NCBI GenBank assembly: GCA_030603275.1
Contig: JAUVYB010000004.1
Location: forward strand, 23,778-87,777
DNA from: Deltaproteobacteria bacterium
GTDB taxonomy: Bacteria; Chloroflexota; Dehalococcoidia; Dehalococcoidales; BS750m-G39
Reading direction: 5' to 3'
DNA: 64,000 bases
In this document: positions 42,989 to 48,406 of the stretch, in pieces
How positions within the stretch are numbered: the first letter of the stretch is position 1
How the letters are laid out: the number at the start of each line of letters is the position of its first letter
Notes under the pieces: model-generated
What the model saw: only the letters and a program-made list of their open reading frames with translations
Told to the model about the DNA's origin: nothing
The model's database searches: none
Program-made: the position numbers and the translations under genes

Positions 42989-44212
42989 TTGGTAGAACCT
43001 TCAACTGCTGACGCCAGCCGCAAGAGAATCTGGGGGCTTAACCCTAACGTTTTCTTTCTGGGTATAGTCAGCCTGCTGACCGATGTCTCATCCGAGATGA
43101 TTTTTACCATCGTCCCTCTCTTTCTATTCAATGTGCTGGGGATAGGGACTCCTGTTATAGGTCTCGTCGGCGGGCTTTCTGAGAGCATCGATGCCATCTT
43201 CAGGATATTCAGCGGCTGGCTCAGCGACCGGACGGGGAAGCGCAAACCGCTGGCGGTACTGGGCTACAGCATTTCTACCGTGGCTAAGCCCTTTATGTAC
43301 CTGGCATCAAGCTGGGGAGCGGTGCTGGCGGTAAGATTTAGCGATAGAATCGGGAAGGGCATCCGCACCTCACCCCGCGATGCCCTGGTGGCTGATTCGG
43401 TTTCGGCCGGGGAGAGGGGGAGGGGATTTGGCCTGCACCGGGCTATGGATACCTTTGGCGCCTTCCTCGGATTGGCCATAGCCGCCGTAATTATCTATCA
43501 GGTACAGGGTGGGGAGCTGGCGCTTAGCCTGGATACCTACCATTGGCTGGTAGTGGTGGGGGTGGTGCCGGCAGTGCTGGCGGTGCTGGTGCTGCTGTTT
43601 TTTGTCCGGGAGAGGAGACAGTCTTCAGCAGGTAATACCAGCTCTCAGGTGAGCCTCAAGAGTATAGGCGGCTTCGATACCCGTTTCAAGCTGTTTCTGG
43701 CTATTATGGCGGTGTTTACCCTGGGCAATTCCAGCGACTTCTTCGTTATCTTAAGGGCGCAGGACCTGGGCTCACCGGTTCTGTATGTGGTGTTGATGCT
43801 GGTGGTGTTTAACATCGCCTATGCGGCTACCTCTATACCGGCGGGGATACTTTCCGACCGGCTGGGGAGAAGGTGGGTTATCACCCTGGGCTGGTTTATC
43901 TATGCCCTGGTCTATCTGGGGTTTGCCCTGGCATCGGAGCTATGGCAGATCTGGCTGCTCTTTGCCGGCTACGGGGTCTACTACGGAATGGTGGAGGGGG
44001 CGGCACGAGCCTTTGTCGCCGATTTAGTCCCCGAGGAGAAGAGGGGCACCGCCTACGGACTTTATCACGGAGTGGTCGGGCTTACCCTCCTCCCCGCCAG
44101 CCTGATTGCCGGGTGGCTGTGGCAGGCTTACAGCCCCGCCACCCCCTTTTACCTTGGCGCTTGTCTTGCCTTTCTGGCTATGCTGGGGATTATGGCTCTT
44201 ATCAAGGAATAA
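42989..44212 (+). CDS. MFS transporter
   Basis: 12-TM pattern; SLLTDVSSEMIFTIVPLFL, GWLSDRTGKRKPLAVLGYS, SDRLGRRWVITLGW. Confidence 0.93.
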   Translation: MVEPSTADASRKRIWGLNPNVFFLGIVSLLTDVSSEMIFTIVPLFLFNVLGIGTPVIGLVGGLSESIDAIFRIFSGWLSDRTGKRKPLAVLGYSISTVAKPFMYLASSWGAVLAVRFSDRIGKGIRTSPRDALVADSVSAGERGRGFGLHRAMDTFGAFLGLAIAAVIIYQVQGGELALSLDTYHWLVVVGVVPAVLAVLVLLFFVRERRQSSAGNTSSQVSLKSIGGFDTRFKLFLAIMAVFTLGNSSDFFVILRAQDLGSPVLYVVLMLVVFNIAYAATSIPAGILSDRLGRRWVITLGWFIYALVYLGFALASELWQIWLLFAGYGVYYGMVEGAARAFVADLVPEEKRGTAYGLYHGVVGLTLLPASLIAGWLWQAYSPATPFYLGACLAFLAMLGIMALIKE

Positions 44213-44612: not shown

Positions 44613-45446
44613 CTACCCCACCACCACATTGTCTATCAGCCTGGTATCCCCGATTCTTACCGCCATTGATATCAGAGTCAGGGGTTTTAGCTCGTCCAGT
44701 TCGTCCAAAGTCTCGGCGGCGGCGATGCTGATATAGTCAATATCGGCTAACGGCTGCTGCTGAATAAGGGCGGTCATCTGCTTACGGATGGCGGCGGCGT
44801 CTCTCTCCCCCTCACCATAAAGCTTCTGCGCCAGGGTTAGTGCCTGATAAAGAACTGCTGCCTGCTTTCTTTCTTCGGGGTTTAGATAGGTATTGCGGCT
44901 GCTCATAGCCAGGCCGTCGGGCTCGCGCACCGTGGGCACGGCAACTACCTCCATGTTCATATCAAGGTCAGCCACCATCTTGCGGATAACTAACAGCTGC
45001 TGGGCGTCCTTCTGCCCGAAATAGGCTCTATCCGGCCTGACCAGCTCAAACAGCCGGGCGACCACGGTAGCCACCCCCCGGAAGTGACCGGGGCGGGATG
45101 CTCCCTCCAATCGTTCGCCGAGCCCGCCTACCTCCACCCAGCTATCAAAGCCGGGGGGGTAAATCTCCTCAACCGTGGGCATAAAGACAAGGTCAACCCC
45201 CTCCCCCTCCAGTAGAGCCAGGTCGCGCTTGGGGTCGCGGGGGTACTGCCTGAAATCTTCTTTGGGGCCGAACTGGGTGGGGTTAACGAAGATGCTGACC
45301 GTTACCGAGGCGTTTTCGGCCCTGGCCTGCCTGACTAAAACTAAATGGCCCTGGTGGAGGTAGCCCATGGTGGGGACAAAGCCGACCGGCCCGGGCATTT
45401 TACCCCTTAGTTTTTCCAGGTCGGATACAGTTTCAACGATTTTCAT
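44613..45446 (-). CDS. panC: Pantoate--beta-alanine ligase
   Basis: VGFVPTMGYLHQGHLVLVRQARAENASVTVSIFVNPTQFGPKEDF. Confidence 0.96.
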   Translation of the reverse strand: MKIVETVSDLEKLRGKMPGPVGFVPTMGYLHQGHLVLVRQARAENASVTVSIFVNPTQFGPKEDFRQYPRDPKRDLALLEGEGVDLVFMPTVEEIYPPGFDSWVEVGGLGERLEGASRPGHFRGVATVVARLFELVRPDRAYFGQKDAQQLLVIRKMVADLDMNMEVVAVPTVREPDGLAMSSRNTYLNPEERKQAAVLYQALTLAQKLYGEGERDAAAIRKQMTALIQQQPLADIDYISIAAAETLDELDELKPLTLISMAVRIGDTRLIDNVVVG

Positions 45447-45652
45447 GATATTATCTGCCCCACCCCTTTTTTAAACAGTTGTTCTTCTTCCCATACCCTC
45501 CCGCCCAAAAAGGCTCCGCCTCTTTTCACCTCTATCCCCTACCCACAAAGCAATGGATTGGGGTGCCAACCCCTATGGGCGGGTGGGTGGGTAGCAAGAC
45601 CCAAAAACCCTATATTTCATTCCCCCCAAGGGTGGTGGGCGAAGCTTACCTT

Positions 45653-45693
45653 AAAGGGTGGCGGGCGGGAAAAGATTTTAAAGCTTCGGGGGA
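45653..45693 (+). repeat. Intergenic repeat module B (copy 10)
   Basis: aaagggtggcgggcgggaaaagattttaaagcttcggggg. Confidence 0.82.
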
Positions 45694-45753
45694 GAATATT
45701 AGAGAGGGGCTAACGCCCCTCTTAAACTCACCTCAACAAATGATTAGCCCGGT

Positions 45754-46536
<783 letters not shown>

Positions 46537-46935
46537 CTATTTCTCCCAGAGGGGCAGCGTCTCTACCGCCGATTTGACCTCGGTGATAACATTCTTTTCG
46601 TCAACATATACACGGGTGGGGCAGTGATTATGTACCTCCGCCTCCTCAACCTGGCGGTAGGTAAGGATGATAACCCTGTCTCCCGCGCCGGCCAAACGGG
46701 CGGCAGCACCCTGGATGCCAATCTCCCCGCTGTCGGCTTCGGCCTCAATGGCGTAGGTCTCAAAGCGGGCGCCGTTGTTGATGTTCAGCACATGAACCTG
46801 CTCGAAGGGGAGGATGTCGGCCGCTTCCATCAGCTTCTTGTCAATACTGATGCTCCCTTCATAGTAGATATTGGCGTGGGTGACGCAGGCCTGGTGGATT
46901 TTGCTCTTTAGCATTGTTCTCATCACAACCTCCAA
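46537..46935 (-). CDS. panD: Aspartate 1-decarboxylase
   Basis: MLKSKIHQACVTHANIYYEGSISIDKKLMEAADILPFEQVHVLNINNGARFETY. Confidence 0.96.
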   Translation of the reverse strand: MEVVMRTMLKSKIHQACVTHANIYYEGSISIDKKLMEAADILPFEQVHVLNINNGARFETYAIEAEADSGEIGIQGAAARLAGAGDRVIILTYRQVEEAEVHNHCPTRVYVDEKNVITEVKSAVETLPLWEK

Positions 46936-46944
46936 ATAATTTAT

Positions 46945-47808
46945 TCAATCGGGTTGTTCCAGAATAGTTTGCAATTCCCGGGCTTGAGATTGATTTATTT
47001 TTCCCTTGTCCAGGGCGATGGGGATGGTCTGACGGCCAAGCTCACGGTAGGTGGAGACGAGTTTGGGGGCGGTCTGCTGGAGGGCGTCAAGGTGTTTGTT
47101 GATGGTGCCGATATCGCCGCGAGCGATTGGGCCGGTGAGGCAGTTGGGGATACCGATAGTCTCGATATTATGAAGCGTCCCGCGGAGCAGCGGGACTAAG
47201 GCTTTAGTGGCTTTTTGCTGGGGGATATCAAAGGTCTGCCAGAGGTCGGTGGCCAGCTTGACCAGGGTTACCATATAGTTGCAGGCAAAGACGGCGGCGG
47301 CGTGGTAGAGAACCTTGTCGCTGGCTTTAAGCTCTACCCACTGGCCGTCAAGTGCGGCTGCCATACTTTTAAGAGTGCCCAGCAGTGGCTCTTCCGCCTC
47401 CAGGGCAAATGTCGAGCCGGGTATATTCTCTATAGCCTGCCGGGGGCTGGCGAAGGTCTGCAGGGGGTGAAAGGCGCCCACTTTAGCCCCGGCTTCTTTA
47501 GCCGGCTGGAGAATATCGGTGGAGTCGGCGCCGCTGCAGTGGGCCACACTCTGACCGGGGCGCCAGTTAATCTTGGAGACTACGGAGGCGATGGCGTTAT
47601 CGGGGGTGGTAATAAAGATAAGCTCGGCGTTATCGGCAACCATCTGGCTGTCATCAAATACGCGGCAGCCGCCGGCTGCCTGCGCCAGCTTTTGGGCCGA
47701 TGCCCGGCTGAGGCTGGATACGGCCACCACGGGATAGCCCCTGCCGGCCAGCCGTGCCGCCAGGGCAGTGCCCACCGTTCCCGCCCCGATAAAGCCCAGT
47801 TTTAACAT
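46945..47808 (-). CDS. DUF2520-type Rossmann oxidoreductase, candidate alternative ketopantoate reductase
   Basis: MLKLGFIGAGTVGTALAARLAGRGYPVVAVSSLS; first gene of pan operon. Confidence 0.88.
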   Translation of the reverse strand: MLKLGFIGAGTVGTALAARLAGRGYPVVAVSSLSRASAQKLAQAAGGCRVFDDSQMVADNAELIFITTPDNAIASVVSKINWRPGQSVAHCSGADSTDILQPAKEAGAKVGAFHPLQTFASPRQAIENIPGSTFALEAEEPLLGTLKSMAAALDGQWVELKASDKVLYHAAAVFACNYMVTLVKLATDLWQTFDIPQQKATKALVPLLRGTLHNIETIGIPNCLTGPIARGDIGTINKHLDALQQTAPKLVSTYRELGRQTIPIALDKGKINQSQARELQTILEQPD

Positions 47809-47825
47809 ATTAAGCCAAATCGCAC

Positions 47826-47858
47826 TAAAAAAGCCTTCTCCGACACAGCAGAGAAGGC
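47826..47858 (-). terminator. Intrinsic terminator in pan leader
   Basis: GCCTTCTC-TGCTGTGTCG-GAGAAGGC-TTTTTT on minus strand. Confidence 0.85.
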
Positions 47859-47973
47859 ATCAACATAGGATTCTGTTTCTGCCGTCTCGGTCATATCCGA
47901 TCCAAGCGACTCAGATTGTTAAAAGTCTTTACTTAAAGGGAGCTTACCGCCCTTTCGGGTCGATAGCTCTGGC
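47826..47973 (-). ncRNA. Candidate structured 5' leader (riboswitch-like) of pan operon
   Basis: Promoter, hairpin GAGCU..CCCGAAAGGG..AGCUC, intrinsic terminator 17 nt before start codon. Confidence 0.65.
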
Positions 47974-47979
47974 ACCTAA

Positions 47980-48008
47980 AGTATAAAAGCTGATTATTTT
48001 TTTGTCAA
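47980..48008 (-). promoter_or_regulatory. Sigma-70-type promoter of pan leader
   Basis: Minus strand TTGACA-17 nt-TATACT. Confidence 0.8.
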
Positions 48009-48079
48009 TAACCCTTAGGTCATGGGGTTTTATTGGGCTCTCTGCGCCTCAACGCTTAGATATTTGCTTACCAACCTAC

Positions 48080-48200
48080 CCCTTTATCCCCCTCCCTTAC
48101 CAGGGAGGGGGAAGGGTTTTTTAAGAAGAGGGGCTTTACACCCCCAAAAAACTTTGTTTTTTCGGGGGCCCCGTATGCGCCCCTCTTAAACACCCCACTG
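48080..48200. repeat. Composite repeat (D plus C) interrupted by TA-flanked hairpin element
   Basis: tccccctcccttaccagggagggggaagg...agaggggcttta[insert]tatgcgcccctcttaaacacccc. Confidence 0.85.
48139..48173. repeat. TA-flanked hairpin element, copy 2 (inside module C palindrome)
   Basis: TA-CACCCCCAAAAAACTTTGTTTTTTCGGGGGCCCCG-TA. Confidence 0.72.
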
Positions 48201-48253
48201 GGTTAACAACTTTTTACAGGGGTGGGATAAAAAGGGCTTTAGCCCTTTTACAT

Positions 48254-48294
48254 TAAGGGCGGCGGGCGGGAAAAGATATAAAACGGGGTGGGGA
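48254..48294 (+). repeat. Intergenic repeat module B (copy 11)
   Basis: aagggcggcgggcgggaaaagatataaaacggggtgggg. Confidence 0.92.
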
Positions 48295-48406
48295 AAAGAG
48301 ATGAAAATAGGCGAAGCCTGTTTGGGCGGGAGGGTATGGGAAGATAAACAAGACTTTAAAATGGGGCGGGGCAACGCCTCGGAAAAATGTGCGTCAGCTT
48401 ATACTT

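Follow-up and report, generated by a model that had tools for sequence, protein, structure and literature searches.

The leader of about 148 nt that lies between a minus-strand promoter and the genes DUF2520-panD-panB-panC raises the question of whether, and how, this RNA controls the pantothenate operon. From the window (the whole 64,000-nucleotide stretch analyzed here) and its relatives, we propose that the leader is probably a transcription attenuator of the pan-motif type, a sequence-based reading to which we give a probability of about 0.7. Computation shows that the leader belongs to the pan family, that promoter, RNA, and terminator form a conserved module, and that a mutually exclusive pairing recurs across bacterial families; from these we infer that the switch works in vivo, that binding or closure turns the operon OFF, and that the pathway end product is its signal.

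The pan motif RNA and its conserved module

The features on which the argument draws are as follows.

47980..48008, minus strand: pan operon promoter TTGACA-17-TATACT, near-consensus
47878..47968, minus strand: pan motif RNA with two tandem hairpins (Rfam RF01749)
47941..47968, minus strand: pan hairpin 1, AGC-UAUCG-A-CC-[CGAAAG]-GG-CGGUA-A-GCU, covarying in relatives
47882..47909, minus strand: pan hairpin 2, UCG-CUUGG-A-UC-[GGAUAU]-GA-CCGAG-A-CGG, nearly invariant in sequence
47878..47890, minus strand: predicted antiterminator strand CCGAGACGGCAGA (3' arm of hairpin 2 plus CAGA), recognized by complementarity to the terminator
47840..47852, minus strand: predicted antiterminator partner UCUGCUGUGUCGG inside the terminator, pairing at 12/13 positions
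47827..47858, minus strand: intrinsic terminator, GCCUUCUCUG-CUGUGU-CGGAGAAGGC, 10-bp stem (47858..47833) plus U6
46945..47808, minus strand: first gene, Rossmann-like plus DUF2520 protein (PF10728, 127.8 bits; PF10727)
46537..46935, minus strand: panD, aspartate 1-decarboxylase (Pfam/NCBIfam)
45754..46536, minus strand: panB, ketopantoate hydroxymethyltransferase (Pfam/NCBIfam)
44613..45446, minus strand: panC, pantoate-beta-alanine ligase (Pfam/NCBIfam)

The first-pass annotation had asked whether this leader is a pan motif RNA, and a scan against all Rfam families answers that it is. The match to RF01749 (47968..47878) reaches 40.4 bits, above the gathering score of 36.2 bits, and spans model positions 1-92; the genome contains no second copy. 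Since the score exceeds the gathering score and the RNA has bulged-A hairpins in a tandem pair upstream of a panB/panC/panD operon, membership is settled. The promoter, leader, and terminator also lie where they had been placed, the promoter scoring 11/12 and the terminator running from 47858 to 47827, and the claimed gene order is borne out by both Pfam and NCBIfam. Further Rfam matches beside the pan RNA (Hrs1, mir-3154, and ilvH) were rejected, as their scores fall far under the respective cut-offs and they lie on a dispersed repeat. A dispersed intergenic repeat, made of blocks of ~40-90 nt that are 77-92% identical and contain C/G-rich palindromes, flanks the pan promoter (48020-48400), fills the 307-nt gap between panB and panC (45447-45753), and has further copies near 500, 4640, 8200, 9930, 10150, 13500, 14250, 16650, 19550, and 40550.

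Each hairpin carries one bulged A per strand, 5 bp apart. Hairpin 1 is as originally described, while the second hairpin as first drawn (UCGG-AUAUGA-CCGA) covers only the inner portion of an alternative fold, and hairpin 2 in its conserved form spans 47909..47882. When we compared 87 distinct leaders, hairpin 2 with both As was present in all 87 and hairpin 1 with 8 or more of its 10 pairs in 86, and the latter covaries at pair 4 (C-G/U-A), pair 5 (A-U/G-C), and pair 8 (G-C/A-U/U-A). One sister genus (g54; leaders L102, L103, L105-L107, and L111-L113) lacks hairpin 1 and has hairpin 2 in the form CCGCUUGU-A-UC...GA-ACGAG-A-CGG, where, on both sides, U-A replaces G-C at the pair adjoining the bulged A. 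This compensatory change lends independent support to hairpin 2, and g54 shows that a single hairpin can persist by itself. Since the Rfam model scores these single hairpins under its cut-off, RF01749 is under-annotated.

RF01749 matches were found in 74 of the 121 relatives searched, which is an under-count because 12 DUF2520-bearing genomes of the order that had been scored negative proved, when inspected, to have hairpin 2 before DUF2520. The pan distribution and the similarity of PanB suggest a Chloroflexota host (Dehalococcoidia-like). A sigma-70-like promoter lies no more than 75 nt before hairpin 1 in 81/86 leaders (against 12/86 after shuffling), and a terminator follows shortly 3' of hairpin 2 in 86/87. 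Because the same module recurs in relatives, the arrangement of promoter, RNA, and terminator is not due to chance. In the window itself, the leader fold is more stable than 200/200 shuffles (z -3.28), and the terminator's U-run reaches 47827, with 18 nt between its end and the ATG at 47808. The DUF2520 start codon has no clear Shine-Dalgarno sequence in 47809-47826 on the minus strand, and the same holds for close relatives such as L026.

The pan motif was discovered by Weinberg et al. in 2010, in a table that marks its switching with '?' (PMC2864571). A ligand or mechanism for the motif was not found in our literature search, in which the mentions were the discovery paper and RNA-seq annotations (PMC4342826, PMC4634765, and PMC5670726). 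The family itself is already known, and what is newly supported here, by sequence comparison, is its probable switching logic.

Complementarity between hairpin 2 and the terminator

Downstream of hairpin 2, the terminator contains sequence complementary to this hairpin's 3' arm. An antiterminator had been proposed between ACGGCAGA and UCUGCUGU; that pairing exists but is incomplete, comprising 8 bp of the longer pairing between CCGAGACGGCAGA and UCUGCUGUGUCGG, which we calculate at -21.1 kcal/mol and which none of 51 control terminators equaled. Since 51 control terminators can reach a minimum p of only 0.019, we built the null by permuting the terminator stem's base pairs and shuffling its loop, and compared 13-nt leader segments, including four control segments, with their own terminators. 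Across 86 leaders from 38 bacterial families, the 3' arm of hairpin 2 was complementary to its own terminator beyond this null, with a mean z of -1.70 over the 38 families (35/38 negative, t = -8.6). On the other hand, no excess was found in the same test of the 86 leaders for the 5' arm of hairpin 2 (0.04), the 5' arm of hairpin 1 (-0.07), the 3' arm of hairpin 1 (+0.47), or the linker (-0.12). About half of the leaders taken singly miss p<0.05, and the complementarity is weak in the single-hairpin genus g54. Together, these findings, from about 85 relatives and with internal negative controls, support the proposed terminator/antiterminator arrangement and indicate that hairpin 2 competes with the transcription terminator, the two being mutually exclusive through a shared strand.

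The simplest objection is that the terminator only insulates the operon, that the pan hairpins regulate nothing by pairing, and that the complementarity is inherited similarity. Terminators are indeed alike among close relatives, so the leaders are not independent, but the signal survives both the collapse to 38 families and replacement of the terminator stem. The arm pairs in two registers, either with the 5' strand of the terminator (GCCUUCUCGG against CCGAGA-C-GGC) or with the loop and 3' strand (GCUGUGUCGG). Family f2 has a quite different terminator stem (ACCUCCG...), and the loop there, CCGUUUCGG (L011, 9/9) or GCCGCUUUCUCGG (L087), still complements the arm. Complementarity persists even when another strand supplies it, an outcome that inherited similarity alone would not predict. 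A terminator placed between promoter and first gene (86/87) would, moreover, otherwise abolish expression. We consider the insulation account very improbable.

The folding energies bear on when such a choice would be made. At 134 nt, just before the terminator closes, the antiterminator fold of the window is calculated at -45.4 kcal/mol against -36.4 for the hairpin 2 fold (a 9.0 difference), and at full length the two states lie within 1.3 kcal/mol (-49.7 against -48.4). Among the relatives, the partial-length balance is shifted by a median of 1.6 kcal/mol towards hairpin 2, with the antiterminator preferred in 35%; in the full-length RNA, most relatives strongly prefer hairpin 2 plus terminator (median 10.5 kcal/mol). 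Since the states are near balance at partial length and hairpin 2 plus terminator prevails at full length, the choice would fall during transcription. A purely thermodynamic switch in all relatives was rejected, as it fits the window but fails for the energetics of most relatives, where switching would need kinetics or help.

A pan RNA of 41.7 bits with the same hairpin precedes the operon DUF2520-panB-panC-panD on a plasmid of the Firmicute Enterococcus faecium. Only 12 nt separate its 3' end from the annotated start of the first gene, which leaves no space for a terminator. Instead, the Shine-Dalgarno sequence is covered by a downstream hairpin in which UCACUUC pairs with GGAGGUGA. GGGAC in the 3' arm of hairpin 2 can alternatively pair with GUCUC, overlapping this sequestering hairpin. 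The arrangement resembles the same logic acting on translation, and is only a lead from a single sequence family.

Downstream and neighboring genes

In most relatives the gene after the pan RNA is DUF2520; it is panC in two genomes and panD, panB, and coaX in one each. Four relatives (L035, L037, L038, and L042; L095-L098) have a peptidase S58 (DmpA-like) gene between the pan RNA and DUF2520. Peptidases of this family can release beta-alanine, so the S58 gene may feed the pathway.

The DUF2520 protein is itself a candidate ketopantoate reductase. One operon (L101; panB-panE-panC-panD-coaX) has a canonical panE, its match confirmed, in the slot that DUF2520 occupies elsewhere. When the order and class are taken together, 27 genomes have DUF2520 only, 7 a strong panE only, 2 both, and 2 neither (Fisher p = 9e-5, uncorrected for relatedness). 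It is this anti-correlation that suggests the assignment. A convincing panE was not found in the genome of the window, the best match scoring 18.5 bits. The genome does contain ilvC, whose product can perform the ketopantoate reductase reaction, and the closest solved structures to the DUF2520 protein, 2i76 and 3d1l, are both without an assigned function.

Two further observations concern genes around pan RNAs. Genome G443 has a second pan RNA with a terminator (L093, 9387-9463, minus strand; also L050), which lies before a molybdopterin oxidoreductase gene; sfsA, an endonuclease III-like gene, and HMG-CoA synthase-like and thiolase-like genes (named by eye) come next, and this would be an unexpected regulon member beyond pantothenate synthesis. 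In the window, an MFS transporter gene (42989-44212, plus strand) is convergent to the pan operon, as it also is in the distant relatives L095 and L097, and this conserved neighbor might carry a pathway compound.

Proposed switching logic, possible effectors, and known systems

In the attenuator that we propose, both pan hairpins could form soon after transcription starts. In the OFF state, hairpin 2 would be kept closed, presumably by an effector that reports enough pantothenate or CoA, so that the terminator would form and transcription would stop before the first gene. In the ON state, hairpin 2 would not be held, CCGAGACGGCAGA would pair with UCUGCUGUGUCGG and block the terminator, and DUF2520-panD-panB-panC would be transcribed.

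What might hold hairpin 2 closed is a separate matter. We see an even chance that a regulatory protein with two sites, possibly a dimer, locks it, which would keep the attenuator logic the same and involve no riboswitch. The discoverers favored a dimeric protein-binding motif because the tandem hairpins are simple (PMC2864571), and the two hairpins are near-identical with equal bulge spacing, while the interior sequence of hairpin 2 is almost invariant, beyond structural need. However, a candidate protein was not found, regulator genes being absent from the operons examined, and g54 manages with a single hairpin, so the two-site layout is not obligatory. Direct binding of pantothenate, CoA, or an intermediate by the pan RNA, as a small-molecule riboswitch, seems to us somewhat unlikely. 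The RNA lies almost exclusively upstream of panB, panC, panD, DUF2520, and coaX operons, and its attenuator layout is like that of known riboswitches, but a pair of ~28-nt hairpins distinguished only by single bulged As would make a very small selective aptamer. CoA is, in addition, listed in a 2022 review as a cofactor without a known riboswitch (PMC9971707). We regard as doubtful the narrower proposal that a pan hairpin serves as a minimal aptamer, sensing pantothenate or CoA directly and operating the terminator switch, with one hairpin being enough as in g54; if true, it would be the missing riboswitch class of the CoA pathway.

The polarity could also be the reverse, with termination as the default and bound hairpins promoting read-through, for example by acting on RNA polymerase as the put RNAs of phage HK022 do. 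The hairpins stand at the 5' end directly before the terminator, and the default full-length fold is the terminated one in most relatives, both as such a mechanism would have it. Yet it leaves unexplained why the 3' arm of hairpin 2 alone complements the terminator, and we judge it quite improbable.

An orphan regulatory RNA since 2010, the pan motif becomes directly testable by in vitro transcription through this strand choice between hairpin 2 and terminator. The proposed expression platform predicts the direction of control and offers a read-out for an effector search, whether for a metabolite or a protein.

Compared with RF01749 as described, the window leader is alike in scoring above the gathering threshold, in its tandem hairpins with two bulged As each, and in the pan genes downstream. 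It differs in that its first gene is DUF2520 rather than panB, in that an explicit antiterminator is identified and comparatively tested here where the 2010 table has only '?', and in the single-hairpin variant of one sister genus. Like terminator/antiterminator riboswitches and attenuators, it would make the 3' arm of the regulatory hairpin and the terminator mutually exclusive, but the pan sensing hairpins are far smaller than typical metabolite aptamers and are not known to bind a ligand. In the put antiterminator RNAs of HK022, the transcript likewise begins with two bulged hairpins, the layout by which we liken pan to them; pan complements a downstream terminator, whereas put needs no such complementarity.
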